This document shows positions 10,820 through 28,704 of a stretch of 40,255 nucleotides of DNA, piece after piece. How positions within the stretch are numbered: the first letter of the stretch is position 1; each line of letters starts with the position of its first letter. The translations under genes were made by a program, and so were the position numbers. The notes beneath the pieces are model-generated. The model searched no databases and had not been told where the DNA came from. It saw only the letters and a list, made by a program, of their open reading frames with translations. Source of the stretch: a virus; IMG/VR virus record IMGVR_UViG_3300048837_000915, positions 1-40,255 of that record, one strand, 5' to 3'.

Positions 10820-10820
10820 C

Positions 10821-11516: not shown

Positions 11517-11546
11517 CGGGGCACTCGGGGCGAGGGGACTGCCCGG

Positions 11547-11599
11547 ATGTTGCCGCGCGCGCGCGAAGCCGCTGAAGTAAAGGGGTTTTGGCCTTTTGG
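11547..11599 (-). promoter_or_regulatory. Candidate late promoter A (tail segment)
   Basis: This is one of three similar 53-bp sequences on the minus strand. It reads CC-rich and A-rich, then CCTTTACTTC, then a GC-rich spacer, then CAACAT. TTTACT to the -10-like hexamer is exactly 23 bases in all three copies. It lies just after the recombinase stop codon and 30 bases before the connector start. By position it corresponds to the Mu tail promoter PP, which needs the C activator; here Mor (39688-40035) would be the activator. Promoter function is inference. Confidence 0.55.
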
Positions 11600-11607
11600 C
11601 CAGGGCG

Positions 11608-12561
11608 CTAGCCCAGGGACACCACTTTCCAGCGGCCCTGCCGACGATCGAGCCCGCGATCGTCCTTGTACAGCTCGGTCATCGACGCGTGGCTATGCCC
11701 AAGCAGCGTCTGCACATCGCGCACGCCCTGCGCGTCGTACATCCGCGCCGCCAGGCTGCGGCACTCGTGCAAGCTCGGCGGATCTGCATCCGCATCGGCC
11801 GGCGGCAGCGCACCCTCGCGGGCCTGCTCGAACCGCCAGCTCATGCTCGCGCCCACCGGCGGCGCCCCGGTCGTCTTGCGCACCAGCCACCCGTCGCCAT
11901 CGTCTTCCAGGGCCGCATAGTCCCGGCACTGCGCCACCGCATCCGCCACCGTCATGCCCAGGGCGCCCAGCCGCAAGCTGGTCGGGATCGCCACCCGCGT
12001 GCCCGTCTTCTGCTGCTCGATGTGCAGGCACGGCACCGCTACGCCGTCCACCTGCTCGGACCACACATCCGAGAACCGCATCGCCCGCAGATCTCCGCGC
12101 CGCTGCCCCGTCACCAGCGCCAGCACCAACATCCGAGACACCCACGGCGGGCTGTGACGCGCTGCCCAGTCGTGCATCGCCGACCACTGCTCGAACGTCA
12201 GCCGCAGCCGCGCCACGCGCACGCGCGGCGTGCGGATTCCGTGGCACGGGTCGCGGTCGATCCATCCGTAGTTCACCGCCTCGCGGAACATATCCCGCGT
12301 CTCGATCAACATCCGGCGCGCAAGGTGCGGATGCTCAGCGGCCACATCGCCGATGAATGCGGCTATCTCGTGCGGCCGCACCGCCCCCACGCTGCGCTCG
12401 CCCAGCTCGCCGACGATGCGCTTGATGTAGCCGGCGCGGTTCTGCTTCGTCTTGAGCTGGATCGGCTTCGCCGCCACCACCTTGCCGTAGATCTCCGCCC
12501 ACTCGGCCACCGTCCGGTACTTGTGGACGATGCGGCCGAGTGTTGCGGAAAGGAACGACAT
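11608..12561 (-). CDS. Lambda-type tyrosine recombinase (integrase)
   Basis: This 317-residue protein has the full catalytic set of a tyrosine recombinase: Arg154 in TGQRRGDL, Lys185 in QQKTGTR, His265 and Arg268 in LHECRSLAARM, His289 in LLGHSH, and the nucleophile Tyr298 in ELYKDDRG. The last two are nine residues apart, as in lambda Int, and the C-terminal tail after Tyr also resembles lambda. A core-binding domain fills residues 10-115, but there is little room for an arm-type DNA-binding domain. It lies within the late operon between a spike-like gene and the head-tail connector, far from either phage end. The leader has no Shine-Dalgarno sequence and is C-rich. Confidence 0.93.
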   Translation of the reverse strand: MSFLSATLGRIVHKYRTVAEWAEIYGKVVAAKPIQLKTKQNRAGYIKRIVGELGERSVGAVRPHEIAAFIGDVAAEHPHLARRMLIETRDMFREAVNYGWIDRDPCHGIRTPRVRVARLRLTFEQWSAMHDWAARHSPPWVSRMLVLALVTGQRRGDLRAMRFSDVWSEQVDGVAVPCLHIEQQKTGTRVAIPTSLRLGALGMTVADAVAQCRDYAALEDDGDGWLVRKTTGAPPVGASMSWRFEQAREGALPPADADADPPSLHECRSLAARMYDAQGVRDVQTLLGHSHASMTELYKDDRGLDRRQGRWKVVSLG

Positions 12562-12600
12562 GGGGCTAGGCGGGGAGTGGGGGGATGCGCGCGAGGGGGA
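12562..12600 (-). other. C-rich leader before the recombinase gene
   Basis: On the minus strand this 39-base gap is dominated by runs of four to six C residues and contains no purine-rich ribosome-binding site ahead of the recombinase ATG. Such C-rich, weakly structured RNA is what Rho prefers. It could lower both transcription and translation of the recombinase relative to its late neighbours. That is inference from composition only. Confidence 0.3.
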
Positions 12601-12804
12601 TTAGAACGCTTCTTCCGTGAATACCACGCCGGGCGGCACGCATATCAGGTCTTCTGCGGATACCTCTTCGGGCGGACTGTCACCATAGTCCCGCGTCTTC
12701 TTCAGTTCCGCATTGATGGCCGCTACGGCTGCGTCCGGGCAGTCCGCTACCACAAAAAATGACCTTGCTCCGTGCCCTTCGGCATACAAGACATACAGAT
12801 TCAT
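12601..12804 (-). CDS. Small accessory protein, unknown
   Basis: This 67-residue acidic protein starts at the ATG at 12804, with GAGG nine bases upstream. It contains a strand-helix-strand pattern (LYVLYAEGHGARSFFVVA, then a helix AAVAAINAELKK). It lies between the NodB-like spike gene and the recombinase gene. Its codons are less GC-rich than those of the capsid and tail genes, as in the spike gene, which suggests the two were acquired together. No family is recognised. Confidence 0.7.
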   Translation of the reverse strand: MNLYVLYAEGHGARSFFVVADCPDAAVAAINAELKKTRDYGDSPPEEVSAEDLICVPPGVVFTEEAF

Positions 12805-12814
12805 TTTCCGGTCC

Positions 12815-14455
12815 TCAGAAAGCGATCTTGGTCGGGTCGTGACGATAGACCCACTCGCCGTCCCAGCGGACAAACACGTCGCCGGGGCGCAAATATGTGA
12901 CGCTCGCCAGCTCGGACGGGCTCAGTACAAGCAGTTTGCCGGCGCGAACATAACTGTCGAGGTCGGCCAGCAGCGCGCGCCACTGATTCAGGCCAGAGTT
13001 GTACACAGTTGGCTGCACTCCGTCGAACGGCACGATGTCATGCGTAAACTGCATTATCGTGCTGCCGTACATCGCAGCCCGCTCGACCGTCATTTGCAGC
13101 AGCGAGCCCTCGTATGTGTCGCGCGTCTCCGGCGTGCTGGCGTCGGCCGGGTGGCTGTACAGCTGCCCGCTGAAATAATTATAGCGACCCCATTTCGGAA
13201 TCCACCCCGTATTCCAGCCCGCGTTGATGCCGCACCGCGTAACGCCGTCGCGCAGCAGCGGACGCGCCGGCGTGTTTCGCCGGAAGGGAGGCTGGGCGGC
13301 GAACGGATCGACGCCCCACTCGCTATCGACGACTTGCGTGCGCGCAACCTCCACACCAAGTCGCCCAAGCTCTTGCGCCATGAAAACACCGCCCGCAACG
13401 TTTGATCGTCCAGAGCCTTGCAGGAATTGCAGGAAGCGCAGCCCCGCTTGTTTTGCGCTAGTGTTGTTGCGGATGCGGTTGGAGATCGCGCGCCAGGACG
13501 CCTCCAGCACCGCGGGCGTCTCAGTCCCTGTCAGCGCACCAGCAGCCGGCGCGCCGGACTCCAGCGAACGCATGTGCGGGAATATGTCCCATCCCGCGTC
13601 CGAAAATTGCCGCAGGTCCGAAAGGCTCGGCAACACTGCGTTGTTTTCCGCATCTTCGAACAGCGAAACGCCACCGCGCCAATCTCGCTGCCGGAATGCA
13701 GATAGAGCGTGCTCGCGGAAACCCTGATACGCACCATCCCCGATCAGCGTAAATGCACCGATGGGCCACTGACTGGAATAGATGCGATTGATCTTGATGA
13801 CGCACGCACCGGATGTTTGAATATGGAAACGGAATCCCACAATCTCGGCGTCGGCCGGCGTGCCGTTGCCCGTACCCCACCCCGGCACCGTGCCGTTCGG
13901 CACGCCGCGATCCGGCGCATTAACCTGCAATGTCCGGTACTTGCCGTTCCAGCGCGCGGCGAAATTCGGGTCTGTGCAGCCATACGACGACGACCCAACC
14001 TCTACCAGCGACATCGGCGCCCGGTCATTTTGCCCAGCGAAGTACGGCCAGATTGCAAACTCGGCGATCTTTGACCAGTCGTCACACCATACCCGGAAAT
14101 GGTTGTGGAACCCAAGCTTTGCCTTCGTACCGTAGTAGTCGGGCGGGATTGGGAGCGTTGTGTAGCCGAGCGCCGTCACGCCCGCCATCGTCAGCACGAG
14201 ATCTTTTCTATAGAACTCGCCGGCAGCGGAATCTGCAATCGTAGCAACGACGCCCGCCGCGGCGGTGATCGTCGCCGGGTTGATCGCCTCGGGGTTGAGG
14301 ATCGGTCGGTGCGTGGGCAGCAGCTCATGCAGCGGGATCGGACCGCCGCCTGGGTTTCGCTGGACGGGGTATGCACTCCCCCCACCCGGTCCACTCACGA
14401 ACCGAACCTCCTGCCCCACCGGCGGGGCAGCCCTTTCAAGGATGCTGCGCTTCAC
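12815..14455 (-). CDS. NodB-like (polysaccharide deacetylase fold) protein, probable tail spike
   Basis: This is a 546-residue protein. An N-terminal third of unknown fold is followed by a region (about residues 245-500) that follows the NodB deacetylase plan. AFTLIGDGAYQGFREHAL corresponds to the usual FTFDDGY motif, LRQFSDAGWDIFPHMRSL to the D-G-W-E-I-G-S-H motif, and the C-terminal FTHDIVPFD to the late His motif. The metal ligands are only partly kept: the second motif has the first His but Leu where the second His is expected. The domain may be inactive or use other ligands. It is probably a virion glycan-binding or glycan-modifying protein. Codon use is less GC-rich than its neighbours. 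It overlaps the previous gene by ATGA. Confidence 0.6.
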   Translation of the reverse strand: MKRSILERAAPPVGQEVRFVSGPGGGSAYPVQRNPGGGPIPLHELLPTHRPILNPEAINPATITAAAGVVATIADSAAGEFYRKDLVLTMAGVTALGYTTLPIPPDYYGTKAKLGFHNHFRVWCDDWSKIAEFAIWPYFAGQNDRAPMSLVEVGSSSYGCTDPNFAARWNGKYRTLQVNAPDRGVPNGTVPGWGTGNGTPADAEIVGFRFHIQTSGACVIKINRIYSSQWPIGAFTLIGDGAYQGFREHALSAFRQRDWRGGVSLFEDAENNAVLPSLSDLRQFSDAGWDIFPHMRSLESGAPAAGALTGTETPAVLEASWRAISNRIRNNTSAKQAGLRFLQFLQGSGRSNVAGGVFMAQELGRLGVEVARTQVVDSEWGVDPFAAQPPFRRNTPARPLLRDGVTRCGINAGWNTGWIPKWGRYNYFSGQLYSHPADASTPETRDTYEGSLLQMTVERAAMYGSTIMQFTHDIVPFDGVQPTVYNSGLNQWRALLADLDSYVRAGKLLVLSPSELASVTYLRPGDVFVRWDGEWVYRHDPTKIAF

Positions 14456-14811
14456 GACATCACCTCCCAGCTCGCCGCAATCTGGGCGCCGGTGCCCGCA
14501 AAGTGCAGCTCCATGCGGTGCCAGAGCGTGCAGTTGATCGCCAGCTGCGTGTTCGCCGCGGCGGCCAGCGTCGGCGCGCGCGGCGCCGGGGTCACGACAA
14601 GGTAGCCATCTGCGGCAGTCACCGAGCCCGGCGTGATGTCGCGCAGCGGCGCGTTCGGCGTGGCCTGGCCGTAGAGCTTCCAGCCGGTCACGGCCGATGC
14701 GCCTTTGTTCTCCAGGTCGACGCGCAGGATGCTCGCGCTGTAGCCCGGGTTGTCGATCACGACAACCGGCTCCAGGCTGGCGGTCAGGGTGCGGTTGGCG
14801 GTTTTGCTCAC
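14452..14811 (-). CDS. Small virion-type protein downstream of capsid
   Basis: This 119-residue protein has a GTG start, with GGAG upstream. Its composition (short strands, many Ala, Thr and Pro, no charged helices, one WHRMELHFAG strand) fits a beta-sandwich decoration or head-fibre protein. It follows the capsid gene after a 149-base gap and overlaps the spike gene by ATGA, so the two may be partners, for example an adaptor anchoring the spike. No family name can be given with confidence. Confidence 0.65.
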   Translation of the reverse strand: MSKTANRTLTASLEPVVVIDNPGYSASILRVDLENKGASAVTGWKLYGQATPNAPLRDITPGSVTAADGYLVVTPAPRAPTLAAAANTQLAINCTLWHRMELHFAGTGAQIAASWEVMS

Positions 14812-14960
14812 GGGGATCTCCAGCGATACGAAAAAGGTGGGGGTTTCCAGTCCTCTCGCCCGTTATCCACCCCCGAAAAGGTTGGCGGGCCGAGGCAGTC
14901 GCGGGGCTCCCGGGGGCAGCGGCTGCCAGCCGCCCCCGATCACTGCCCTGGGGGAGTCCC
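14812..14960 (-). terminator. Intergenic hairpin after the capsid gene
   Basis: The 149-base gap after the capsid stop contains a strong bulged inverted repeat at 14911-14938, with arms CGGGGG...GCGGCT and AGCCGC...CCCCG separated by GCC. There is no U-tract after it. It is more likely an attenuator, an mRNA 3'-end stabiliser or a Rho-dependent stop than an intrinsic terminator. It would let capsid mRNA accumulate above that of the accessory block downstream. The rest of the gap shows no gene. Confidence 0.45.
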
Positions 14961-17249
14961 TTACGCCACCACCGCCTTGTAGAACCCGCGGTAATCCATC
15001 ACAGCGCCGCTGTAGATGTGGCGGATCTTGTAGGTGACCTGGTCGTTCGAGAACAGCGACCCGACGTTCGGCGTGTCTTGCACGAAAAGCTCCGGCTCCT
15101 CGCGGCCGTTCAGGAAGCCGACCTCGATGGTCGGGATCTGGCGCGGGTCGGCCACCACCGCCCAGTCGTTGGCGTCGGTCCAGTACGGCACCGCGATCAC
15201 TTCCGGGTTGATGGTCTGGATGAAGGTCTTGTCGTTGTTCTGGTTGCGGATGAACAGGTCGAACGCGGCGGCCTGCAGCTCGGGCGGGACCAGGAGCGTC
15301 CGCGGCGTCAGGTTGAGCCGCTTGAGCGAGCCCGCGCGGGTCTGCTTGAGCATCGCCAGGCGTGCGGCCGCAAAGCTCGTGGCGTCCAGCGCAGCGGCGC
15401 CGAGGTTGCCGTGGCCAGCGGTGAACAGCGCCGTGGTGTCGTAGATCGTCGGGTTCGTGCGGATGAAGTCCATCACGAACTCGTACAGCGTGTTGGCGGC
15501 AGCCAGCGCCATCTCGGTCGGCAGGCGGCGGATTGCGCCCACGTCGTCGTTGGCGATCATCTCCAGGGTGATCGACTCGGTGCCGCCGCGCTTGGTCAGC
15601 GCATAGGTCGCCTTCTCGTCACTCGGGCTGGTCAGCGCGGTGTAGGCCGCCGCCTGGTTCACGCCGGGCAGGTTGCCGTAACCACCGATGCGGGTGCGCT
15701 CCTGGGTGCGGAAGTCGGTCACCGGCACCACGTCGGCCACCTTGCGCCAGGCCTGCAGGTCGGTCATCTGTGCGTAGTCGGCCAACATGCGGCGGGTGAT
15801 GCTGTCGCCCAGCACGTTCGCCCAGCTCGAGGAGGACAACGCCTCGACGAAGCGCTCGCCCATCGACTCGCGCATGCGCGACAAGTCGCAGTTGCGCAGG
15901 TCGCCGGTGATCTGGCGGTCGCCGGTGATCTCGACGTAGCACTCCTTGAAGCTGTGCACGCCGCTGCGGTTGAAGAAGTTGTCGAGCATGGCGCCGATCT
16001 TCTGCGAGCGGTCTTCCACCTGCACCGTCTCGTCGAAGTGGATCACCGGCTTGCCGCTCTCGGTGAAGCGCGCCAGGTACGCGCGCTCGTCCTCAATGGC
16101 CTTGCTCACGTCCGCCGCGGTGAAAGGCGCTTGCGCCTCCACAAAGCGGGCGAGCAGCTTGTCCTTGGCGGGCTGCGGCAGCTTGGCGGCGCCGACCAGG
16201 TCGCGCGCGGTGATGCGGGCCTCCACCAGGCGCACCTGGTCCATCAGCGCCGGATCGGCGGCGGGCGCGGGGGCCGGGGTCGGCGCGGGCTTGGCGGCCT
16301 TCGCCTCCACGAAAGCGGCCTCGATCTGCTCGTCAGTCGCGTTGGCGTCGTCGAAAGCGGGGTTGTGGGCCTTGATGGCCTCGATCATGCGTTGGCGCAG
16401 TGCCATGTCTTCATCCTCCTGGGACGGGGTTGCTTGGGCTTCGACGATGCGCAGCAGGGCACCGCCCGCACCGGGTTCCACGATCAGATCCACGGAATGG
16501 ACCTTGGTGATTTGGGTTGCGGCGCGCAGCTTGCGGCCGCCCTTGGTGATGACCTTGGCCTTCGCGTCGGCGTCAATCGAGAAGCCGAACAGGCCGGCCA
16601 TGCCGCGGGCGTGGGCCTCGCGCACGCGCACGGCCACGTCGCCATCGGGCTGGATCAGGTGCAGATCGGCCTGGATCTCGCCGGTGTCGGCCGCAGCCCC
16701 TTCGACGAAGCGGGCGTTGCGCAGCTGGCCTACCAGGTTGCGAAAGCTCTTGCCCGGCGCCACGGCCTGGGTGCCGGCCGCGACGTGATCGGAGTCGCTC
16801 TTCTCGAAAACGCGCGCGCCTTCGACCAGGCGCACGGCGTCACGCAGCACGGCGTCGGGGTAGTAGTTGCGGTTGCCCGATTCGCCGGCGCGGATCACGC
16901 GGATCAGCCACACGCCGCCGGTAGGCTCGCCCACCGCTTCGATGAAGGCCTGCTCCTGCTGCGCCTCGGTCATGCGCGAGGCGGCATCCACGTGCTGCAT
17001 CACCACCTCGCGCGGCGCGCCCACGGTGACCGCGTTGTCTTCGGAAAGGGTGAAGGGGAAGGCGTAGTAGCGGCCGTCCTTGTAGACGACCACGCGGTCC
17101 GGATAGACCGCCTCGGGGCTTGCGTACTCGGAGACGTGCCCGGCCTGGACCAGCGCACGCATCACCAGGTTGAGCACCGCGCGCACCTCGGTGGCGGCGG
17201 CCTCGATCAGCCGCGCGCCCACGATGCCATGGGCCGGGATGCTTTTCAT
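14961..17249 (-). CDS. Fused prohead protease, scaffold and major capsid protein
   Basis: This 762-residue protein has three parts. Residues 1-275 are a prohead protease of the S78-like type, with a probable catalytic His155 in SDSDHVAAG and Ser252 in KVHSVDLIVEPG. Residues 282-400 are a helical scaffold with a Pro-Ala linker (PAPTPAPAPAAD). The remainder is a Mu gpT/HK97-fold major capsid protein with the C-terminal IRHIYSGAVMDYRGFYKAVV. In Mu these functions are separate genes, with the scaffold made from an internal start. Here Met282 (ATG at 16404-16406) is preceded by AGGAGG, so the scaffold-capsid part is probably also made on its own. Confidence 0.92.
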   Translation of the reverse strand: MKSIPAHGIVGARLIEAAATEVRAVLNLVMRALVQAGHVSEYASPEAVYPDRVVVYKDGRYYAFPFTLSEDNAVTVGAPREVVMQHVDAASRMTEAQQEQAFIEAVGEPTGGVWLIRVIRAGESGNRNYYPDAVLRDAVRLVEGARVFEKSDSDHVAAGTQAVAPGKSFRNLVGQLRNARFVEGAAADTGEIQADLHLIQPDGDVAVRVREAHARGMAGLFGFSIDADAKAKVITKGGRKLRAATQITKVHSVDLIVEPGAGGALLRIVEAQATPSQEDEDMALRQRMIEAIKAHNPAFDDANATDEQIEAAFVEAKAAKPAPTPAPAPAADPALMDQVRLVEARITARDLVGAAKLPQPAKDKLLARFVEAQAPFTAADVSKAIEDERAYLARFTESGKPVIHFDETVQVEDRSQKIGAMLDNFFNRSGVHSFKECYVEITGDRQITGDLRNCDLSRMRESMGERFVEALSSSSWANVLGDSITRRMLADYAQMTDLQAWRKVADVVPVTDFRTQERTRIGGYGNLPGVNQAAAYTALTSPSDEKATYALTKRGGTESITLEMIANDDVGAIRRLPTEMALAAANTLYEFVMDFIRTNPTIYDTTALFTAGHGNLGAAALDATSFAAARLAMLKQTRAGSLKRLNLTPRTLLVPPELQAAAFDLFIRNQNNDKTFIQTINPEVIAVPYWTDANDWAVVADPRQIPTIEVGFLNGREEPELFVQDTPNVGSLFSNDQVTYKIRHIYSGAVMDYRGFYKAVVA
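16404..16420 (-). promoter_or_regulatory. Internal ribosome-binding site and start for scaffold-capsid
   Basis: On the minus strand a perfect AGGAGG (16415-16420) lies eight bases before an in-frame ATG (16404-16406) encoding Met282 of the protease-capsid fusion. Initiation here would give a 481-residue scaffold-capsid product in excess of the full-length protease fusion, as the stoichiometry of a capsid requires. The six-base match and the ideal spacing make chance less likely, and a protease-scaffold boundary is exactly where it falls. Confidence 0.75.
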
Positions 17250-17251
17250 GG

Positions 17252-17494
17252 TCAGGCCTTGCCGCCCTTGCTCGCCGGCGCCTTGCCGGTCAGCTTCTCG
17301 CCCGAGGTGGTCACCACGACGAGCTCGTCACCGCGCACGCGGTTCGCGAAGACCTCGTCGGCCTGCAGCGGCACGTCGGTGTCCTTGCCGGTCGGCTTGC
17401 CATCGGCGCCCAGCTCGGGCGCCTTGCGGCTCACCAGCTTTGCGGCCTGCTCGGCCGGCAGGTCCATGGGGTGCTGCGGGGTGGGTTTGTCCAT
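17252..17494 (-). CDS. Small head-module protein, unknown
   Basis: This 80-residue, Lys-rich protein starts at the ATG at 17494, with GGAG upstream, and ends two bases before the capsid fusion start. It is the first gene after candidate late promoter B. It is probably partly disordered, with a small beta segment (ANRVRGDELVVVTTSG). No family is recognised. Its place suggests a virion-assembly accessory role. Confidence 0.65.
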   Translation of the reverse strand: MDKPTPQHPMDLPAEQAAKLVSRKAPELGADGKPTGKDTDVPLQADEVFANRVRGDELVVVTTSGEKLTGKAPASKGGKA

Positions 17495-17534
17495 TGCTGC
17501 GCTCCGTAAAGGCGGTTGGGGGAATGACGGAGCG

Positions 17535-17587
17535 AGCATGGCGCCTCGCGCGAGGGCCGCAGAAGTAAAGGGATTTGGGCTTTTCGG
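17535..17587 (-). promoter_or_regulatory. Candidate late promoter B (capsid segment)
   Basis: This is the second copy of the conserved minus-strand sequence: GAAAAGCCCAAAT, then CCCTTTACTTC, then 23 bases counted from TTTACT to CATGCT. It lies after the MuF stop codon and 40 bases before the start of the gene ahead of the protease-capsid fusion. That matches the location of the Mu PI promoter. Activation by the Mor-type protein at the right end is inferred. Confidence 0.55.
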
Positions 17588-17609
17588 GGCGGGCGCCCGG
17601 GTGCGCGGC

Positions 17610-18503
17610 TCAGCCCTGGCGGGCGGCGTTGCGCACGGCAGCGCGTGCGCGTGCGTTCTCGGCGGCGTCGCTCTCGGCGACCTCGTCTTTCACGGTGCGC
17701 TCGAGCCCGTACGGGTTGTCCTTCGGCACCACCGGCACCGCAGCGCAGCCGCAGTTGATCGTATGCCGCGCCGGCGCGCGCGGGTCGCCGGGGTACATCA
17801 TCTTCACCGCGCCGCCCTCCAGCACGAACGGCTTCTCCACCGGCTGCGTCTGCCCATGGATCGCCACATGCTCTGGCCGCGGCTCGCGCTTGCCGCTCTT
17901 CAGCCACTTCTTCTGCAGCCCGGGCACGTACTGCGCGCTTTGCTCCATGCGCAACTGGTTTGCTGCCGCAAAGGCCCGGTTGAGCTCGGTCGCAACGATC
18001 GTCGTGCCCCGGCGCAGCGTCTTCTCGCCCAGCGCCTCGCTCACGGCCTTGATCGCATCGAAGGGCGTCTTCACACCAATCGTCACCAGGCCCAGCTCGC
18101 TGTTGATCAGGTTCGCCGCGTCCAGCGTCACGTCCTTGATCTTCTCCGTAAGGAACTGCCGCATCGCAGACAGCTGCCGCGTGTCCAGCTGCGGCATCAC
18201 CACCGACACCGCCGACGCCGCCAGCACGCCATCCACCAGCGCCGAGCCCTGCCGCCACGCCGCCACCTGGCCGGCATCCACCGCCGCCGCCACGTCTCCC
18301 GCGATCAGCTCGAGCACGCGGCGCACCTCGCCCTGCAGCTGCGGCAGATACCACGCCTGGTAGTCGCTCGGCAGCGCCGCCAGAATCGCCAGGATGTCGG
18401 CGTCCGCCTTCTGCAGCAGCGCGCGCAACTCGGCCAGCGTGCCGTTGATCAGCCGCGTGCGCCCTGTCAGCGCCGCGTTGAAGGCCTCGGTGGGCGTCGT
18501 CAC
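17610..18503 (-). CDS. MuF-like minor head/morphogenesis protein
   Basis: This 297-residue protein has a long helical N-terminal two-thirds followed by the MuF signature: KKWLKSGKREPRPEHVAIHGQ, with a C-terminal ARHTINCGCAAVP. The Mu gpF (gp30) family binds the portal and is packaged in the head. The start overlaps the Lar-like stop by ATGA. It is the last gene before candidate late promoter B. Confidence 0.92.
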   Translation of the reverse strand: MTTPTEAFNAALTGRTRLINGTLAELRALLQKADADILAILAALPSDYQAWYLPQLQGEVRRVLELIAGDVAAAVDAGQVAAWRQGSALVDGVLAASAVSVVMPQLDTRQLSAMRQFLTEKIKDVTLDAANLINSELGLVTIGVKTPFDAIKAVSEALGEKTLRRGTTIVATELNRAFAAANQLRMEQSAQYVPGLQKKWLKSGKREPRPEHVAIHGQTQPVEKPFVLEGGAVKMMYPGDPRAPARHTINCGCAAVPVVPKDNPYGLERTVKDEVAESDAAENARARAAVRNAARQG

Positions 18504-18814
18504 AGCCGCCCCTCGGCCTCGGGGTCGTCACGCCGCCGGCACGGCGCGCGCGTGTTCCACGCGCAGGTCGCCGCGTACATCGCCTCGTCGCGCAGCCCAT
18601 GGTCCGGCCCCGGGCGGTACTGCACATCCTGCCCCTGCGCACGGCACTCGATGCAGCAGCACAGCGCCCGGCGCGCGCCCAGCATCCAGCTCACGTCCAC
18701 CATTTCCGCCACGCCACCGCAGAACGGGCAGGGCAGCAGCTCGGGCAGCTCGGGCAGCGCCTCACCCCGCAGCAGCTCGGGGGCCGTCGTCGGAAGCCCC
18801 TCCGGGGCAAGCAT
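18500..18814 (-). CDS. Lar-like restriction alleviation zinc-ribbon protein
   Basis: This is a 104-residue protein. I chose the ATG at 18814, which has GAGG seven bases upstream; a GTG at 18820 is possible. The pattern LLPCPFCGG (Cys29, Cys32), a second Cys pair in CIECRAQ (Cys54, Cys57), then CAWNTRAP (Trp86, Asn87, Arg89) is the Lar family signature. Rac-prophage Lar relieves type I restriction by modulating EcoKI. Finding it between portal and MuF genes, with a DNA methyltransferase nearby, suggests protection of replicating or incoming phage DNA. Confidence 0.75.
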   Translation of the reverse strand: MLAPEGLPTTAPELLRGEALPELPELLPCPFCGGVAEMVDVSWMLGARRALCCCIECRAQGQDVQYRPGPDHGLRDEAMYAATCAWNTRAPCRRRDDPEAEGRL

Positions 18815-18816
18815 GC

Positions 18817-20268
18817 TCACGCCTCACCCCGCTCGGCGCCCGGCGCCGCGTCGGGCTCCGGCTCCGGACCCGGCCCCACAAAGGCATCCCGCGCCGCGCG
18901 CGTCTCGGCGCCCTCGCGCGCCTGGCGCAGCTCCTCGGCCGGGTCGATCTCCACCCCCAGCCGCCCCGCCACCGCGGCCACCAGCGCCACGCCGGTCTCC
19001 TCGCCCATCAACCCCGCGTTGATCGCCATGCTCACCGCCTGCACCACCTGGGCGAGCGCCGCCGCGTATTTGGTCGTGTCGCGCGCCGTCATCTCCGGGA
19101 ACACCGCCTCGCACGCCAGGCGCTCGTCCCACCAGTCCGGCTCGCCAGCCTCGGCGATCAGTTTCTGACGGATCACGTAGCGGCCCACGCTCTCGATCAT
19201 GTGCTTCAGGAAGCGCTGCCGCATCGAGAAGGCCTTGAATGTCGGCTCGCCCATGCTGTCGCCGGTCGCGCGATTCACATCGCCGCCACCGCCAAACCAG
19301 TGCTCGGGGATGGTCGCGCCGCCGAGCACATGGTTGCGGAACAGCCGCGCCCCGTCCGCCGTGTCGCCGGCCTTGATGTCTGGGCTTTCTGCTTTCCAGA
19401 CCTCCGAGTCGTTATGCACCCGCACGCTGCCCGGCGCCGGCGCCTTGATCGTCCGCGCCTTCTCCTTGATCTTCGACTCGTCCGCACCGGTCACGGTCAC
19501 GTCCCACACGAAGGCCCGCAAAAAGTTGTAGCGCTCGATCTCGCCGAACAGAAACTGATCGTAGGCATCCACCCAGTCCGCCGGCGCCCGCAGGTCGCTG
19601 CGCCCGCGCCGGGAAACGCTCAGGTCATTGACCGTGAAGTAGAACGCCTCGCCATCCGCAAACGTCTTGCGAATCTCCTGCGTGCGCTGGGTAAAGACCG
19701 TCTCCGGCCCGTTCACGATCACCCGGTAGCGCAGCGCGCGCCCCTTGCGGTCCCGCACCGTCACGATGCCGATCGGCTGCTCCGGGTTGTCCGGGTCCAC
19801 CACGACGGTCTCGATCAGCGCCGGGTCCAGATAGCCCAGGCGCACATGGCCATCCACCTCATTCACGAAGGTCGGCCACACCTGCTCGCCGAATATGCTC
19901 AGTTCGCGCACCTTCTTCGGCAGCTTCACGTCCATCGAATTGATCGGATCCGACCAGAAGCGCCCGATCGTCTCCTGCATTGCCGGCTCGCCCGCGCGCA
20001 GCTCCACGCCCTCGGCCAGCATGTAGGCCAGCGGCAGCTCGACGATGCGGTTCGCCAGCAGGTTCGCGTCCCACAAATACAGCGCGGTCTCGCGCATGCG
20101 CGCCTGGCTCAACGGCGACAGGTCGCGGTCGGCGTCGCCACTCAGCCGGCGCCAGCCCTCTTCATCGTCCGGGTCGATCGTCGCGCCGGCCGCCTCCACC
20201 ACGCGCGCGGCGCCCTCGGTTTCAGAGGCATCACCCCCGCGGCGGAACAGAAAATCCAGAATGCCCAT
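18817..20268 (-). CDS. Portal protein
   Basis: This 483-residue protein lies between terminase and MuF, where Mu gp29 and other portals are found. Portal features include an early helix with ANRIVELPLAYMLAEGVEL, then LSIFGEQVWPTFVNEVDGHVRL, and the stem/crown region FWSD...KLPKKVREL. The C-terminal tail is acidic and Pro-Glu-rich (PGPEPEPDAAPGAE). It forms the dodecameric ring for DNA entry and exit. It is separated from the upstream small gene by 54 bases and overlaps nothing on that side. Confidence 0.9.
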   Translation of the reverse strand: MGILDFLFRRGGDASETEGAARVVEAAGATIDPDDEEGWRRLSGDADRDLSPLSQARMRETALYLWDANLLANRIVELPLAYMLAEGVELRAGEPAMQETIGRFWSDPINSMDVKLPKKVRELSIFGEQVWPTFVNEVDGHVRLGYLDPALIETVVVDPDNPEQPIGIVTVRDRKGRALRYRVIVNGPETVFTQRTQEIRKTFADGEAFYFTVNDLSVSRRGRSDLRAPADWVDAYDQFLFGEIERYNFLRAFVWDVTVTGADESKIKEKARTIKAPAPGSVRVHNDSEVWKAESPDIKAGDTADGARLFRNHVLGGATIPEHWFGGGGDVNRATGDSMGEPTFKAFSMRQRFLKHMIESVGRYVIRQKLIAEAGEPDWWDERLACEAVFPEMTARDTTKYAAALAQVVQAVSMAINAGLMGEETGVALVAAVAGRLGVEIDPAEELRQAREGAETRAARDAFVGPGPEPEPDAAPGAERGEA

Positions 20269-20322
20269 CGGCCTAGCCTCTCGGTGTTGGTTATAACGCG
20301 TGTTACACGCCCTCAGGCGGGC

Positions 20323-20508
20323 TTACACGCCTTCGGACGGGTCATCAGCCGCCCCACATGGCGCACAGGGCGCCACGGGCCGCGCTTGCGTCTTGTCCGT
20401 TGCCTGGTCCCAGGTCTCGCCCGCATGCCTCGCCAGCGGCTTGCGCTGCCGCTGCCGCAGGCGCTTCCTCGACCACGCCAGGCGGGCGTCCAGGTCGCGC
20501 GGCTTCAT
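20323..20508 (-). CDS. Small basic protein, unknown
   Basis: This 61-residue protein starts at an ATG that overlaps the methyltransferase stop (ATGA). The N-terminal half is a strongly basic helix (RLAWSRKRLRQRQRKPL), as in nucleic-acid-binding peptides, and the rest is disordered. Downstream, 9-base direct repeats GGCGTGTAA lie around its stop codon. No family is recognised. Coupling to the methyltransferase suggests a shared accessory origin. Confidence 0.6.
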   Translation of the reverse strand: MKPRDLDARLAWSRKRLRQRQRKPLARHAGETWDQATDKTQARPVAPCAPCGAADDPSEGV

Positions 20509-21317
20509 GCCCCACCTGCCAGGCGCGCGGCTTGCTGCTCGGTCAGCTCGTAGGCGTCGCGCACATCGGCGATCGCCGGTGGCCAGGGGATACCTTGCGC
20601 CTCGGCGATGCGGCGGCAGGCGACGGCGAAATGCTCGGGGTCGCATTCGATGCCGACGAAGCGCCGGCCCTCCAGCACAGCAGCAACGCCCGTCGTGCCA
20701 GACCCCATGAACTGGTCCAGGATCTGGGCACCCTCGGGCACGATGCGCACCAGCTCGCGCATCAGCGCGGTCGGCTTTCCGGTCATGTGGTGCTTGTCGG
20801 CCTGCAGCACGGTCGCCCGATAGGCGCCGGGGAACGGCCCAGCGTGCTCGGCGATCGGGATCTTCCCGGCCGTGCCCCACACGATGTATTCACACTGGTG
20901 TTTCAGGTAGCCCTTGTGCGGGGCGCGCGCACCCAGGCCCTTGTCCCATGCGGCCACGCCGCGCCACATCAGGCCCGCCCACTGGAAGGCATCCGACAGC
21001 GCAGGCAACTGGCGCCAGTCGATGAAGCTGAGCACATAGGCGCCTTCCTCTATCGGCAGCCGCTTCAGCCATTCGACGCACCAGTTCATCCACGACCGCT
21101 GGTCTTTCGCGTCTCCGGAAAACGCCCGCCACTGGCGCTTCACGTCGCCCGAGACATACTTCGCCTTCACCGACATGGTGCGATCCGCGCGGTACATCCC
21201 GCCCGACGCATAGGGCGGGTCGGTGATCACGGCAGCCACCGGCGGCAACCCGGGCATGATCTCCATGCAATCCCCCAGGTACAGCACCGCCGCACCGATC
21301 TCCACCTTCTTCACCAC
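20505..21317 (-). CDS. DNA adenine-N6 (or cytosine-N4) methyltransferase, beta class
   Basis: This 270-residue protein has motif IV TDPPYASGG (residues 32-40) before motif I DQFMGSGTTGVAA (residues 201-213), the order of beta-class N6/N4 methyltransferases. DPPY favours adenine as target. There is a segment for target recognition between them (WDKGLGARAPHKGYLKHQCEY). No partner endonuclease is encoded nearby, so it is an orphan. It probably methylates phage DNA to escape host restriction. The GTG start sits behind AGGGGAG and overlaps the terminase stop. Confidence 0.93.
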   Translation of the reverse strand: MVKKVEIGAAVLYLGDCMEIMPGLPPVAAVITDPPYASGGMYRADRTMSVKAKYVSGDVKRQWRAFSGDAKDQRSWMNWCVEWLKRLPIEEGAYVLSFIDWRQLPALSDAFQWAGLMWRGVAAWDKGLGARAPHKGYLKHQCEYIVWGTAGKIPIAEHAGPFPGAYRATVLQADKHHMTGKPTALMRELVRIVPEGAQILDQFMGSGTTGVAAVLEGRRFVGIECDPEHFAVACRRIAEAQGIPWPPAIADVRDAYELTEQQAARLAGGA

Positions 21318-22885
21318 AGCGTCACTCCCCTGGCGCCCATGCGCCCTTGTCCCATCTTCGGCCGCGGCGCGCGGTACGTGTACGCCTCGGCCTCCACCGT
21401 CTCACCCGCTGCCGGCGGCACCTCGGCGCGGCTGGCGGCGTAGGCCAGCATGATCGCCACCGCCGAGTCGCCGTGCCGCTTGCCCCCGTCCGCGCCATCG
21501 GTGCGCACGTCGGGGATGATCGGGATGCCCTTGTCCACCACCACCAGGCGCAGGTCATCCAGGATGTAGCGGTCCATCGGCAGCTCGATCCCGCCATCTT
21601 CGAAAGCCGCTTTCAGCGGGGCGGTGTTGTCCCGGTACCAGGGGCGCGACAGCATCACCTGCTCGATCAGCGTGGCGCCGTAGCGCTGCATCGCCTTCTC
21701 GCCCAGGTACTGGCCGTTGCCGCGCGCATCCAGCTTGCCGGCGCGGAACCTCGGCAGCCGGTCGCAGATATAGAAGAACGCCTCGCGCTGCTGGTCGAAC
21801 GGGCAGTTGCGCAGCTCGAGCAGGAACGGGAACCGCCGGCGCAGGTTGGCCAGCAACTGGCACGGCGCCATCACCGTCAAGTCGCCCGTCCGCCCGAAGT
21901 CCTCGCCGACGAAGCTCGGCGCATCCGGGTCCAGCGCCAGCAGCAGCGGCAGCACGTGGGTGTCGAGCCACTCGCGCATCTCGGCCGTGCGCAGGTGCTC
22001 GGGCCAATGCACAAAGTCCGGGGCCGGCGGCGCCCAGCGCAGCACCGGCAGGTCCTTGTTCATGCGCGCTTCGATCAGCGCGCGCGTCAGCCAGCTGCCC
22101 GAGCCGTTCTTGGGGATGCAGTCCAGCTCCTCGGCGGCGTTGTCGCCGTACTGGGCATAGATGCCCTTCACCCAGATCTGCTTGTCCGCCTCGGTGGGCT
22201 GCACGCCGCGGCGCAGGCATACGCGCTCGTACAGGCCATCGGCCAGCGCGTCCTGGAAGGTGATCGTGTGCACGCTGTACGGGTACTTGCCCGCGCGGAT
22301 GTCCTTGATCCACTCGTTGAAGGGGTTGGCGTCGCCGTCGTGGGTGCTGATCACATGCACCTGTCCGCCCCAGATCAGCAGCGCCATCGCCGCCTTGAGC
22401 AGCTCGCCCAGGTTCGAGTGGAATGCCGCCTCGTCGATGATCACCCGGCCCTGCTTTCCGCGCAGGTTGCGCGGGCTGCTGCTCAGCGCGGTGATGCGGT
22501 GGCCCGATGCGCAGCGGATGGTGAAGGTGAGGATGCTCTTCTTCTCGTCGCCTTCGATGAAGACGTCCTCGCCTTCCTCGATCTCGCTCGCGGCCATGCC
22601 GTAGAACTTGAGCCAGTCGCCGCAGTCGCGGATGAACTCTTCGGCCATGTCCTTCGTATAGCCGATGTACCACACGTCCATGCCGCTCGCAGACGCCGCC
22701 AGCAGCGCCGAGTCGCCGGCCTCGCCCCAGCTCAAGCCGATACGGCGCGATTTCTCGCAGAACTTCACCGGCGTGGCGTCCTTGGCCCAGCGCTGCTGGT
22801 AGGGCAGGAACGCCATCGGCGTGCGCGCGTCGCGCGCTTCCATCGCACGCGCCACCGGGGCGAGGGCGGGTGCGGCATCAGTCAT
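21311..22885 (-). CDS. Terminase large subunit (Mu gp28-like)
   Basis: This 524-residue protein has an N-terminal ATPase domain, with a deviant Walker A (KSRRIGLSW, residues 45-53), Walker B RVIIDEAAF (147-155) and the coupling motif STHDG. A C-terminal RNase H-type nuclease follows, with FVGEDFGRTGDLTV near residue 330 and a late KRHGDSAVAIMLAY. It packages phage DNA into proheads. In Mu-like phages the small-subunit role is served by a gp27-type protein, which is also present here. Confidence 0.95.
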   Translation of the reverse strand: MTDAAPALAPVARAMEARDARTPMAFLPYQQRWAKDATPVKFCEKSRRIGLSWGEAGDSALLAASASGMDVWYIGYTKDMAEEFIRDCGDWLKFYGMAASEIEEGEDVFIEGDEKKSILTFTIRCASGHRITALSSSPRNLRGKQGRVIIDEAAFHSNLGELLKAAMALLIWGGQVHVISTHDGDANPFNEWIKDIRAGKYPYSVHTITFQDALADGLYERVCLRRGVQPTEADKQIWVKGIYAQYGDNAAEELDCIPKNGSGSWLTRALIEARMNKDLPVLRWAPPAPDFVHWPEHLRTAEMREWLDTHVLPLLLALDPDAPSFVGEDFGRTGDLTVMAPCQLLANLRRRFPFLLELRNCPFDQQREAFFYICDRLPRFRAGKLDARGNGQYLGEKAMQRYGATLIEQVMLSRPWYRDNTAPLKAAFEDGGIELPMDRYILDDLRLVVVDKGIPIIPDVRTDGADGGKRHGDSAVAIMLAYAASRAEVPPAAGETVEAEAYTYRAPRPKMGQGRMGARGVTLW

Positions 22886-23114
22886 GGAGATCCACCAACG
22901 CTGCCGCCTCGCGAAACCTGCGCATGGTCATGTGGCGCATCCGGCTGCGCTCGGCCGGCACGCGCGACAGCCGCCGCACATACTCCGTCTCGTCGCAATC
23001 CATCAGCGTCACGCTCTCGCAGCTCACGGTCGCTGGGTGGATCACAAACACCCACCAGCGCTCGCCGTCGACCTGGTACTCGCCACCGCGCACCACATGC
23101 TCCCGTTGCAGCAT
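22878..23114 (-). CDS. Small accessory protein before terminase
   Basis: This 78-residue protein starts at an ATG that shares a base with the upstream stop (TGATG) and overlaps the terminase start by eight bases. It contains strand segments (ERWWVFVIHPATVSCESVTL) and a basic C-terminal helix (RMRHMTMRRFREAAAL). Such a basic helix could bind DNA. It is inserted between the gp27 and gp28 equivalents, where Mu has no gene. Function unknown. Confidence 0.6.
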   Translation of the reverse strand: MLQREHVVRGGEYQVDGERWWVFVIHPATVSCESVTLMDCDETEYVRRLSRVPAERSRMRHMTMRRFREAAALVDLHD

Positions 23115-23293
23115 CAGTGCTCGTCCTCGCAAAGGTCGATCTTCAGCAGCCCTGGATCCGTCAGGGCGCGCAGGATATGAACCGCGTCCTCTGTATCGTC
23201 AAGGTTGAGAATCCGGGCGAGCATCTCGCCGAATGCCTCGGCGAAGGCGCCCTCGTCCTCGCGACTAAGATTGAATTCGATCTTCTGCGCCAT
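23114..23293 (-). CDS. Small acidic protein before terminase
   Basis: This is a 59-residue, strongly acidic helical protein (FNLSREDEGAFAEAFGEML). I chose the ATG at 23293, sharing one base with the previous stop; a GTG at 23296 is also possible. It forms a coupled pair with the basic 78-residue protein downstream. The opposite charges hint that the two could interact, but this is only inference. Confidence 0.6.
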   Translation of the reverse strand: MAQKIEFNLSREDEGAFAEAFGEMLARILNLDDTEDAVHILRALTDPGLLKIDLCEDEH

Positions 23294-23832
23294 CACACCA
23301 CCCCCAGAATCTTCTGCCGGATCAGGTCCGCCGCCTCATCACTCAGCCCGCTGGCCTTGGCCTGCTTCACCGCTTCCACCGCCGCGCGCTTCGCCACCTC
23401 CTGGCGGATCATCAGGATCCGGTCGGCGGTCAGCTTGTCCGTGCTCGCCAGGTCCTTCATGGCCTTCGCCAGGAACATCACCTCCTGTGCATCGCCGCCT
23501 TCCTCGCGGTCGCCGATCGACCCCAGCGTCTGGAACGCCACGCTGCGCAGCATCTCGGGCAGCAGCCGGGCCACGTCGCCATCGGGCTCGCTCTCCAGCT
23601 TGCTCACCCACACCTTGGCCACCTCCTGCGCCTCGCGGTACCGGCGCATCTGCTCCTCGGCGCGCTGGGCGTAGCGGCCCAGGGCGCTGCGGCTCACCGG
23701 TGCGGCGCCGCCGTTGATCGTCGCCAGGTGCGCCAGGATGTCGTCGAGCGTGTGGCGCCCGTCGCGCAGCAGCTCGTCCACCGCGCTGCGCAGCCGGGTG
23801 TCCAGCTTCTGGACACTGCTCTTGCGGGCCAT
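23293..23832 (-). CDS. DUF3486 protein, Mu gp27-like (small-terminase role)
   Basis: This 179-residue protein starts at the ATG of MARKSSVQKLDTRLRSAVD. Its N-terminal helix-turn-helix-like part (HTLDDILAHLATINGGAAPVSRSALGRYAQ) and long helical rest are typical of DUF3486, the Mu gp27 family that acts as the terminase small subunit. Neighbouring gp26-like and gp28-like genes agree. Confidence 0.9.
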   Translation of the reverse strand: MARKSSVQKLDTRLRSAVDELLRDGRHTLDDILAHLATINGGAAPVSRSALGRYAQRAEEQMRRYREAQEVAKVWVSKLESEPDGDVARLLPEMLRSVAFQTLGSIGDREEGGDAQEVMFLAKAMKDLASTDKLTADRILMIRQEVAKRAAVEAVKQAKASGLSDEAADLIRQKILGVV

Positions 23833-23836
23833 GGCG

Positions 23837-24136
23837 TCAGATCCCGGGCGCGGGGCGCGCCACGCCCGGCACCACCACGCGGCCATGCGCCACGTCGGCG
23901 CCGCGCTGGGTCAGGGTGGCAATGCTCACGCCGCCCACGGCCTCGAGCTTCAGCAGATCCTGCTCGGCCAGCCACGCCAGGTCGGTGCCCAGGCGGTCCA
24001 TCCCCACCGCGTGGCCAAAGCCATCCAGGGCGCGCTGCAGCAGGTAGGCGTTGCCGCGGTAGTCCGGCGCCTGCTCCAGCAGCCGCAGCACCACCAGGCG
24101 GCGGTCGGCCGTCACGTGTTCCGCAAACGAATTCAT
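23837..24136 (-). CDS. Mu gp26-like winged-helix phage protein
   Basis: This is a 99-residue protein. The sequence FAEHVTADRRLVVLRLL, then TDLAWLAEQDLLKLE and VSIATLTQRGADVAHGR follow the winged-helix pattern of the VpaChn25_0724-type/gp26 phage family. It lies between the DUF2730 and DUF3486 genes, as in Mu relatives. The role in head assembly or packaging regulation is not settled. Its start overlaps the DUF2730 stop. Confidence 0.85.
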   Translation of the reverse strand: MNSFAEHVTADRRLVVLRLLEQAPDYRGNAYLLQRALDGFGHAVGMDRLGTDLAWLAEQDLLKLEAVGGVSIATLTQRGADVAHGRVVVPGVARPAPGI

Positions 24137-24525
24137 TGCTTGCCCCCGGTCGTCATCAGGTAGGTGTGGATCAGGTGCAGCGTGTTGTTCGCGCCCTTGA
24201 ACTCGCCCTGCAGGCTGGCCAGCGTCTCGCCCACCTGGTCCATGCGGGCGTGGATGCGCTTGAGGTCGTCGTGGCTCGGTGCGTGCTGGATGTCCTTTTC
24301 CACGCGGGCGAGGCGGTCGCCATGGTTGTCCATGCGGTGGTCCATGTCGCTCCTCATGCCCTCGATCCGCGTCTGCAGGCTCGCCTGCAGGCTGGTGATG
24401 CGCTCGTTGGTCACCCGGTTGCGGTTGGCGAAATACGTGTAGAGCGCCGCGATCCAGATCACCAGCGTGTTGGTGATCTGCAGCCAAAGTTGTACGTCTT
24501 TCAGTTCCATGCCGGCGCTCGTCAT
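24133..24525 (-). CDS. DUF2730 protein, Mu gp25-like
   Basis: This is a 130-residue protein. I chose the ATG at 24525 because it overlaps the Rz stop by ATGA; a second ATG at 24510 is possible. A transmembrane segment (LVIWIAALYTYFANR) is followed by long coiled coil with repeated Met-Asp-His positions, which is the DUF2730 (Mu gp25) layout. The family lies at the border of the lysis and head modules. Function unknown. Confidence 0.85.
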   Translation of the reverse strand: MTSAGMELKDVQLWLQITNTLVIWIAALYTYFANRNRVTNERITSLQASLQTRIEGMRSDMDHRMDNHGDRLARVEKDIQHAPSHDDLKRIHARMDQVGETLASLQGEFKGANNTLHLIHTYLMTTGGKQ

Positions 24526-25148
24526 TTCGGGTCGGGGGGTTCGTGCCAGTCGATCAGCGCGTCGAGCCGGCGGGCGCACTCGTCGTACTGCCGCCCGGCG
24601 CCGATCGCCCATCGGGCCAGGTCGGTGTCGGTGGCGTAGCGCTCGGGCTCAGGCCCGCCCCCAGCCCCATCTCCACCCCGCTGCGCGGAATCGGCGCCAG
24701 CGTCGGCGACACGCGCTGCAGCAGGGCGGCCGGCGGCCGCGGACACTCGAGCGGGGGCAGGGGCGATGCCGGGGGCACGGTCGAGCACGCGCAAAGCAGC
24801 AGCGTCCAGACAGGCGCGCCCCTGCGTAGCCAGGGTGATCTGTTCATCGAGCTCTCCTCGTAGGGCTTCGGCCTGCCGCAGCGCGGCGGCCAGTTCGTCG
24901 GTCAGCGCATCGCCGCGTGCCTGGGCAGCCTGCAGCCGCGCCGCGGCCTGCTCGGCGAAGATTCGCCACTGCTCGCTGTGCTCGCGCTGCACGGCCTCCA
25001 GCGCGTTCTGCAGGCTCGCCACCTCGCGCGCCTTCAGCAGCCCGTTGAGCCACCCGCCGCCCATCGCGGCCAGGCTCAGCGCGAGGGTCACGAGCACCAA
25101 CTTGGTACCGCCACCGAAATGGTCGACCAGCCATGCGAGCGGGTTCAT
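24522..25148 (-). CDS. Rz-like inner-membrane spanin
   Basis: This 208-residue protein starts at the ATG of MNPLAWLVDHFGGGTK, which overlaps the holin stop by ATGA. There is one N-terminal transmembrane helix (KLVLVTLALSLAAMGGGWL) and a long periplasmic helix (REVASLQNALEAVQREHSEQW onward), as in i-spanins. A lipoprotein reading frame nested in another frame (24554-24847) is the matching o-spanin. Together they fuse the inner and outer membranes at lysis. Confidence 0.85.
   Translation of the reverse strand: MNPLAWLVDHFGGGTKLVLVTLALSLAAMGGGWLNGLLKAREVASLQNALEAVQREHSEQWRIFAEQAAARLQAAQARGDALTDELAAALRQAEALRGELDEQITLATQGRACLDAAALRVLDRAPGIAPAPARVSAAAGRPAAARVADAGADSAQRGGDGAGGGPEPERYATDTDLARWAIGAGRQYDECARRLDALIDWHEPPDPK
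24554..24847 (-). CDS. Rz1-like outer-membrane spanin lipoprotein, nested in Rz
   Basis: This 97-residue reading frame lies entirely within the Rz gene in another frame. It begins MNRSPWLRRG, has a hydrophobic stretch (VWTLLLCAC) ending in a lipobox-like LCAC, and then a Pro-rich segment (STVPPASPLPPLECPRPP). This is the standard layout of nested Rz1 o-spanins. It is longer than lambda Rz1 (60 residues). Confidence 0.75.
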   Translation of the reverse strand: MNRSPWLRRGAPVWTLLLCACSTVPPASPLPPLECPRPPAALLQRVSPTLAPIPRSGVEMGLGAGLSPSATPPTPTWPDGRSAPGGSTTSAPAGSTR

Positions 25149-25384
25149 GTGCGGATCGCCTGGCTGGTCACGATGCGCAGCATCGCGTTGATCACCGGCA
25201 GCCCCACGGCGATCGCGGTGTAGAGATTCACCGGCAGCAGCGGCTGCAGCAGCCCGGTGCTCGCCTCCAGGGCCAGCAGGCCGGCGGCGAGCACGTTCAC
25301 CCAGATGGTGCGGCTGTGCCACCAGTGCTTGCAGGTGGGCGCAGGCACAGCGGGCTCGTCGGCGTAGTCGCGCGGCGTATCCAT
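25145..25384 (-). CDS. Holin
   Basis: This 79-residue protein has two predicted membrane helices (TIWVNVLAAGLLALEA and LYTAIAVGLPVINAML), a Cys/His/Trp-rich N-terminal part (TCKHWWHSRT) and an Arg-Thr end. Size, topology and the place between amidase and spanins fit a phage holin. The start shares one base with the preceding stop (TGATG). Confidence 0.85.
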   Translation of the reverse strand: MDTPRDYADEPAVPAPTCKHWWHSRTIWVNVLAAGLLALEASTGLLQPLLPVNLYTAIAVGLPVINAMLRIVTSQAIRT

Positions 25385-25605
25385 CACGCACACTCCTGCG
25401 CGGCCGCGTCGGTCGGCGTCAGCTCGCGCACCACCAGCACGTCGCCCCGGTGCAGATGCACGATCGCCGACCCGCCCGGCGGCAGCTCCTGCGTGCGCAC
25501 CGGCCGGTCGTTCACCTGCCCGCAGGCATCCACGTGGAACACGTCCGCGCGCAGCCATGCCGCGCTCTCCGGTTCGTGATGGGTCACGGTCACGCACAGG
25601 CTCAC
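25384..25605 (-). CDS. Small lysis-cassette protein, unknown
   Basis: This 73-residue protein has a GTG start that overlaps the amidase stop (GTGA). It has alternating strands (CVTVTHHEPE, SAIVHLHRGDVLVV) and no signal peptide or membrane helix. It sits between the amidase and the holin and is translationally coupled to both. It might be a cytosolic beta-barrel accessory factor. I do not recognise a family. Confidence 0.65.
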   Translation of the reverse strand: MSLCVTVTHHEPESAAWLRADVFHVDACGQVNDRPVRTQELPPGGSAIVHLHRGDVLVVRELTPTDAAAQECA

Positions 25606-26123
25606 GGCAGCCTCCACTCGGTCAGGATGTGCCCGGGCTGCGGCTGCAGCCCGTCGGCGAGCCACTGCTCCACGTCGAACCCCGGGCACGCCTTGCGCGC
25701 CCCGGTGTCACGGTGCCCGCACACCCCGCGCCAGTACGTGTCGGAGTTCGCGTGCTGCAGCGGGATGCCGTACGTCGCGCACAAATAGCGCACCTGCTGC
25801 GCGAGCTGGTCCCACTGCAAAGGGGTGAACTGGTCGGTGCCGACCAGGCAGATCGACAGGCTGTTGCCGTTGTGGCCGCGCGCATGGGCGCCCACCTCCG
25901 ACGCATGCCGGCCCGTAGCCAGCCCGCCGTTGGTGTAGATCACCCAGTGGTAGCCGATGTGGTACAGCTCGGGGTTCCACTTGCGCGCCTCGTCCGTCTT
26001 GGGCGCACGCCGGAACCCGGCCTCTTTATGCCAGTGGTCGATATCCAGCACGCTGGTCCAGCGCCCGTTGGGCGTGGCCGCGCAGTGGATGATGAGGGAG
26101 TCGATTCGGCGCAGGTAGCTCAT
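25602..26123 (-). CDS. Endolysin: N-acetylmuramoyl-L-alanine amidase (T7 lysozyme type)
   Basis: This 173-residue protein has the Amidase_2/PGRP fold. Zinc ligands are His13 (LIIHCAATPNG), His137 and Cys146 (CGHRDTGARKACPGFD); Tyr58 lies in YHIGYHWVIY. It cuts between N-acetylmuramic acid and L-alanine of peptidoglycan. There is no signal sequence, so export depends on the holin. It is the first gene after candidate late promoter C and has no Shine-Dalgarno sequence. Confidence 0.95.
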   Translation of the reverse strand: MSYLRRIDSLIIHCAATPNGRWTSVLDIDHWHKEAGFRRAPKTDEARKWNPELYHIGYHWVIYTNGGLATGRHASEVGAHARGHNGNSLSICLVGTDQFTPLQWDQLAQQVRYLCATYGIPLQHANSDTYWRGVCGHRDTGARKACPGFDVEQWLADGLQPQPGHILTEWRLP

Positions 26124-26129
26124 GCCCGC

Positions 26130-26182
26130 AGGCTACGCGCGCGGGCGAGGGGGGCCGAAGTAAAGGCGTTTGGGGCTTAGGC
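26130..26182 (-). promoter_or_regulatory. Candidate late promoter C (lysis segment)
   Basis: This is the third copy of the conserved minus-strand sequence: TAAGCCCCAAACG, then CCTTTACTTC, 23 bases from TTTACT to TAGCCT. It begins within the end of the XRE regulator gene and lies only six bases ahead of the amidase ATG. Transcription from the -10-like hexamer would start at or next to that ATG. Its place equals Mu Plys. Confidence 0.55.
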
Positions 26183-28579: not shown

Positions 28580-28623
28580 TTGCGTACAAACCCGTTGACA
28601 GATACGCGATTGCGTACCATCAT
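28580..28623 (+). promoter_or_regulatory. Early promoter with overlapping operator repeats
   Basis: On the plus strand a perfect TTGACA (28595-28600) is followed after 17 bases by CATCAT (28618-28623), giving a strong sigma70-type early promoter. The octamer TTGCGTAC occurs at 28580-28587 and 28610-28617, and the second copy forms the dyad TACGC-GATT-GCGTA lying between the -35 and -10 boxes. These are likely binding sites for the repressor and the Ner-like protein. I could not place the repressor's own promoter with confidence. Confidence 0.75.
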
Positions 28624-28704
28624 TCATTCACACCGTCACACCTCGAACGGCAACTAAAGCGACACGCGCCAACGTGCCGCCAGCCCCCGAAGGAGCTTCA
28701 CACC

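Follow-up and report, generated by a model that had tools for sequence, protein, structure and literature searches.

Three short minus-strand repeats in the analysed window, a 40,255-base IMG/VR virus record of a transposable, Mu-like phage whose arms are divergent, are very probably sigma70-type late promoters that depend on a Mor/C-family activator and serve three late operons, with an amidase mRNA that is probably leaderless. The sequence itself shows the repeats, their spacing, their conservation in relatives, a leader of zero length if transcription begins where predicted, and one Mor/C gene; that the activator binds and activates, exactly where transcripts start, and that translation is leaderless are inferences from these features. 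In the proposed mechanism, the Mor/C-family protein (39688-40035) would be made last in the early operon, and its dimer would bind [A/C]AAA-N4-TTTA at about -43.5, recruiting RNA polymerase to a non-consensus -10 hexamer (YANNNT) without a usable -35. The activated promoters would then start the lysis/packaging, head, and tail operons; the first nucleotide from the lysis promoter (P-lysis) would be the A of the amidase ATG, and the tail promoter (P-tail) would restart transcription downstream of a cargo insert.

Repeats at the borders of the late segments

The early genes of this phage occupy the plus strand from about 28.7 kb onwards and include a CII-like regulator (29657-30121), a MuA-like transposase (phrog_310, 6e-81), a MuB-like protein, the Mor/C-family activator, and, in our reading of the sequences, HU-like and gp16-like genes. 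Late genes lie on the minus strand in the order amidase, terminase, portal, gp30-like, capsid, integrase cargo, connector, and tail. Within this late region, the pattern CCNAAANNCCTTTACTTC occurs with 0 mismatches at 11574-11591, 17562-17579, and 26157-26174, always on the minus strand, and a scan of the window at up to 3 mismatches returned only these three copies and no fourth. Shuffled sequences gave a mean of 0.11 matches, and none of the 100 shuffles gave three.

The first-pass annotation had described three near-identical 53-bp copies on the minus strand (26182-26130, 17587-17535, and 11599-11547). All three are present, but near identity holds only for a core of about 20 bp; the hexamer recurs with it, and the spacer and flanks are not conserved. 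In pairwise comparisons of the copies, the core (from -10 to +10 around the dyad centre) is identical at 16-17 of 20 bases, the spacer at only 5-12 of 21, and the hexamer at 3 of 6; the three cores are CAAACGCCTTTA, CAAATCCCTTTA, and AAAACCCCTTTA. As had also been reported, exactly 23 nt separate TTTACT from TAGCCT, CATGCT, or CAACAT (YANNNT) in all three copies, and each copy comes after a stop codon, the preceding ORFs being those of a helix-turn-helix (HTH) protein (ending at 26177), a gp30-like protein (17610), and an integrase (11608).

All of the following features are on the minus strand. At P-lysis, the dyad core CAAA-CGCC-TTTA (26161..26172), a predicted Mor/C operator conserved in L080 and L082, is followed by TAGCCT (26130..26135), which starts 32 nt from the dyad centre, and then by the first gene of the lysis/packaging segment, an N-acetylmuramoyl-L-alanine amidase (endolysin) gene (25602..26123; PF01510 4e-17, phrog_822 7e-39). 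At the head promoter (P-head), the core CAAA-TCCC-TTTA (17566..17577; conserved in L081, L210, and L211) and CATGCT (17535..17540) precede an 80-aa ORF (17252..17494) with GGAG upstream and homologues in L142, L174, L215, and others. Next comes the 762-aa capsid protein (14961..17249), whose C-terminal part is Phage_capsid_4 / Mu gpT-like (PF25209 3e-51, PF10124 4e-6). At P-tail, the core AAAA-CCCC-TTTA (11578..11589; conserved in L210) and CAACAT (11547..11552) stand before a conserved gene in the connector position (10821..11516; synteny in 77 relatives), which is followed by an HK97-gp10/Neck1 gene (10319-10852). The -10 hexamers of the three copies are weak YANNNT sequences without a sigma70 -35 at 16-18 nt, and no sigma70 -35/-10 pairs were found in 11300-26400. 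Terminators at the segment borders of the window were not above chance, and a search for RNA families found none.

Spacing between dyad and -10 hexamer in relatives and in Mu

Relatives were collected via terminase and capsid. The motif is retained at the same sites in L080, L081, L082, and L210, which have a 91% identical capsid or 94-95% identical TerL. Beyond these, a scan of the whole collection with the exact 15-base pattern matched 75 stretches, about the chance expectation for a collection of this size, and only near-identical phages among them are informative; named phages searched with the head/lysis DNA of the window showed no similarity. In relatives, equivalent sites precede the lysis and head-protease genes in lineage-specific versions. 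One element of each pair comes before lysis, about 2-3 kb upstream of the terminase gene, and the other before protease/capsid, about 2.5-4 kb downstream of that gene. Most are imperfect dyads of the form NAAN-N4-NTTA (AAA-N4-TTTA-like) whose sequence differs by lineage, for example, CCTAAAACCCTTTAATTTA in Rheinheimera, GGTAAAGCGCTTTACT, AGTAAAGCACTTTAT, TAACACATGTTA, and CAAACCAGTCTAAT in Cardiobacterium.

Alignment of the sites by dyad centre brings out a -10-like hexamer sharply focused on +31/+32. After reduction of 65 sites to 28 non-redundant ones (<60% identity), nAnnnT stands at +31/+32 in 22 of the 28, while with other offset pairs the count is 1.4 on average and 5 at most; dyad centres were placed by eye, and the sites of L220, L240, and L260 (5 or 6 of the original 65) were spotted with the -10 score in view. 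Odd-centred or unclear pairs in L243, L278, and L280 are not counted. D3112 and YPCBV-1, examined later, have nAnnnT at +32 in all four of their sites, and PM105, KP12, L161, and L162 yielded no convincing pair of motifs. Long GC-rich hairpins with T runs that came up in blind repeat searches (L231, L238, L249, L254, and L258) are terminator-like and were excluded. A run of alternating GC (CGCGCGCG) often links dyad and -10 in GC-rich phages, as in the window copies, L098, L147, L165, and L213. L166 has three operator copies (TAAY-N4-GTTA; 3423, 7331, and 14026), the extra one preceding the lysis region instead of the tail, and in the Mucispirillum prophages L169-L179 an AT-rich element, TATAATAAATATTAATAATA, is repeated at several places and possibly represents another operator type.

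Activation by Mor and C has been worked out mainly for Mu, and the starts of the Mu late promoters have been mapped. The hexamers of Mu Plys (TAGACT), PI (CAAACT), PP (TATCCT), and Pmom (TAAGAT) all stand at +32 from the dyad centre, so that the window copies share with them the 32 nt to the start of the -10, a non-consensus YANNNT, and the lack of a usable -35. At Mu Pm, the Mor dyad spans -51 to -36 with its centre at -43.5, in a promoter for which no -35 sequence is indicated (PMC4287176); the window dyads are likewise centred at about -43.5, and the record likewise encodes a single early Mor-family activator. Since the Mu late promoters and the Mor site at Pm share this spacing and centre, the geometry of the window promoters is of the Mor/C-dependent type. 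Their operator, AAA-N4-TTTA, is unlike that of Mu C (TTAT-N6-ATAA / CCATAACCCC type), and, in contrast to Pm, which drives the C operon, the same class of site stands at three late operons.

The first-pass annotation had placed the copies where Mu has its three C-dependent late promoters. This is correct for the lysis and head positions, where the window sites, like the Mu C promoters, precede the lysis and head-protease genes in a phage with a Mor/C-family activator. The third copy, however, precedes connector and tail genes after the cargo and does not correspond to Mu PP, whose position is within gene N and about 390 bp ahead of P (baseplate hub); no counterpart of Pmom was found in the window. 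RNA-seq of the B3-like phage Fc02 distinguished three late clusters, the first starting from holin-endolysin and the second comprising mainly virion genes (PMC9936078). D3112 resembles the window in having a paired dyad/-10 element before its first late gene and before the protease, with a different operator (TTGAACCCCTTCC).

The tail copy and the activator

In most of 77 measurable relatives, the connector gene lies within about 0.75 kb of the capsid gene, whereas inserts of 2-4 kb separate the two in the window, L210, L212, L213, L214, L278, and L279. The contents of these inserts are unrelated: the 3.4-kb cargo of the window (11608..14811, minus strand) holds an integrase gene and ORFs without known function, L210 has fibre-type proteins and an S11 peptidase, and L213 has a GDSL-type protein. 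The window integrase is a tyrosine integrase (11608-12561, minus strand; PF00589 4e-14, phrog_7244 4.5e-40), encoded among the late genes of a phage with MuA/MuB-type transposition genes as well. The other cargo ORFs (12815-14455, 546 aa, and 14452-14811, 119 aa, minus strand) have no Pfam or PHROG match, and the 546-aa ORF found no match among named phages. In L210, whose capsid is 91% identical, the same pocket (3858-7573) carries a GP4-type fibre (Gp80), an adaptor (Gp77), and an S11 peptidase-like protein.

P-tail would restart transcription after this cargo pocket. Alternatively, the tail copy could be a recent duplicate that was brought in with the integrase cargo and is dispensable for tail expression, as its position directly after the integrase gene and the lack of a copy before the connector gene in seven cargo-free relatives with known motifs might suggest. 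We regard such an origin as unlikely, given that a third copy is found in four cargo-bearing relatives: L210, despite its unrelated cargo, carries a copy of its own 76 bp ahead of the connector gene, and in L212-L214 a degenerate version of the different motif particular to these phages stands 121 bp ahead of that gene (15-16 of 20 positions, versus 14 on the control strand). No comparable copy was recognised before the connector gene in L278 or L279.

The candidate activator of all three promoters is the product of the last early-operon gene (39688..40035, plus strand; PF08765 6e-25; longer frame from 39610), the only PF08765 gene in a record whose left end may be incomplete. It is 39% identical to Mu C over 79 aa and 31% identical to Mu Mor over 77 aa, and it matches PDB chains of Mu C and of Mor, two proteins with solved structures. 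A hairpin follows the gene, and the right end of the phage is about 150 bp away, as placed by L290 (96% identical transposase), which diverges into host DNA just past the activator gene and hairpin. Mor/C genes were found in 22 of the 27 records searched, the five without one being fragments, and in D3112 and PM105 (B3-like), too, the annotation places a single activator gene last in the early operon. Because there is one Mor/C-family gene, and it is the last before the right end, the protein probably drives the late genes directly. Thus, in contrast to the two-activator relay of Mu, a single Mor/C protein would probably serve all late promoters without a Mor-to-C step.

Across 22 phages, similarity of the Mor helix-turn-helix tracks similarity of the operator (Mantel r 0.48, p 0.0002), also after correction for terminase (partial r 0.25, p 0.017), and in the converse test terminase adds nothing (r 0.02, p 0.42). 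This correlation argues against the view that the dyads serve a different phage regulator (CI/Ner- or CII-like) as operators or are targets of a host factor, with Mor/C acting elsewhere. The window does encode further DNA-binding proteins, including the CII-like one and two HTH proteins (28127-28627 and 26177-26407). Moreover, the operator does not track the activator closely, because L142, L155, and L174 have operators 78% like that of the window, yet Mor helix-turn-helices only 24-29% identical, and such pairings of similar operators with distant Mors (L142/L174) would fit a different binding protein. Such a regulator is nonetheless very unlikely, as the dyad-to-minus-10 distance is that of the Mu Mor/C promoters (PMC4287176) and the sites stand at the starts of late operons only, with none in the early or repressor region. 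That the repeats are module-boundary sequences for homologous exchange without a promoter role is scarcely credible: their location at module borders, with counterparts at the equivalent borders of relatives, would fit this, but variation of the core among lineages would defeat such exchange, the spacer and flanks are not conserved, and a recombination linker needs neither the fixed -10 nor the fixed ATG spacing kept across differing lineages. The reading of the repeats as late promoters of Mor/C-type architecture, first proposed in the first-pass annotation, is supported by the Mu-like -10 spacing, the equivalent sites in relatives, and the single Mor/C gene.

Predicted leaders of the late transcripts

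With +1 placed six bases after the hexamer and start codons predicted, the ATG of the window amidase coincides exactly with the predicted +1 of P-lysis (26123, minus strand), giving a zero leader. No earlier amidase start is available, because the TAG of the P-lysis -10 is an in-frame stop. The amidase mRNA is therefore predicted to be leaderless, which we consider probable, unlike the transcript from Mu Plys, which has a leader. For the head and tail operons of the window, the predicted leaders are about 34 nt (+1 at 17528, ATG at 17494) and 24 nt (+1 at 11540, ATG at 11516).

Predicted leaders of -2 to +3 nt occur at 12 of the 28 non-redundant sites, the window amidase included, and the leaders at the other sites are mostly at least 14 nt long and often include a Shine-Dalgarno-like sequence. 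In D3112 and the related MP29, and at the protease of PM105, an ATG lies 0-1 nt from the predicted +1; in MP29 an open frame of the protease begins at the predicted ATG, and in H70, another relative of D3112, the start of an annotated gene coincides with the ATG predicted for that phage. The 115-aa ORF that begins at the predicted leaderless ATG at 10749 of D3112 (L298) is unannotated in that phage and annotated in H70. An apparent frameshift relative to MP29 near the start of the D3112 protease gene (19793-19918) may explain the internal annotated start. A search of the open-access literature turned up no report of leaderless transcripts from transposable phages.

Near-zero predicted leaders at many sites, including separately in D3112, suggest that leaderless late mRNAs extend beyond the window phage. 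On balance, we lean towards the view that many Mu-like phages, among them the window phage and D3112, make leaderless lysis mRNAs and often leaderless head-protease mRNAs. The distances between operator, -10, and ATG would then be locked, such that binding of the activator fixes where transcription starts as well as a translation start lacking a Shine-Dalgarno sequence, while the operator diversifies by lineage together with the activator. By the geometric rule that emerges, a dyad followed after about 31-32 nt by nAnnnT and often by an ATG at +1, many Mu-like late promoters would be readable from sequence. The lineages would also supply natural activator/operator pairs for studies of specificity, and leaderless late transcripts are predicted in laboratory-accessible phages, such as D3112.
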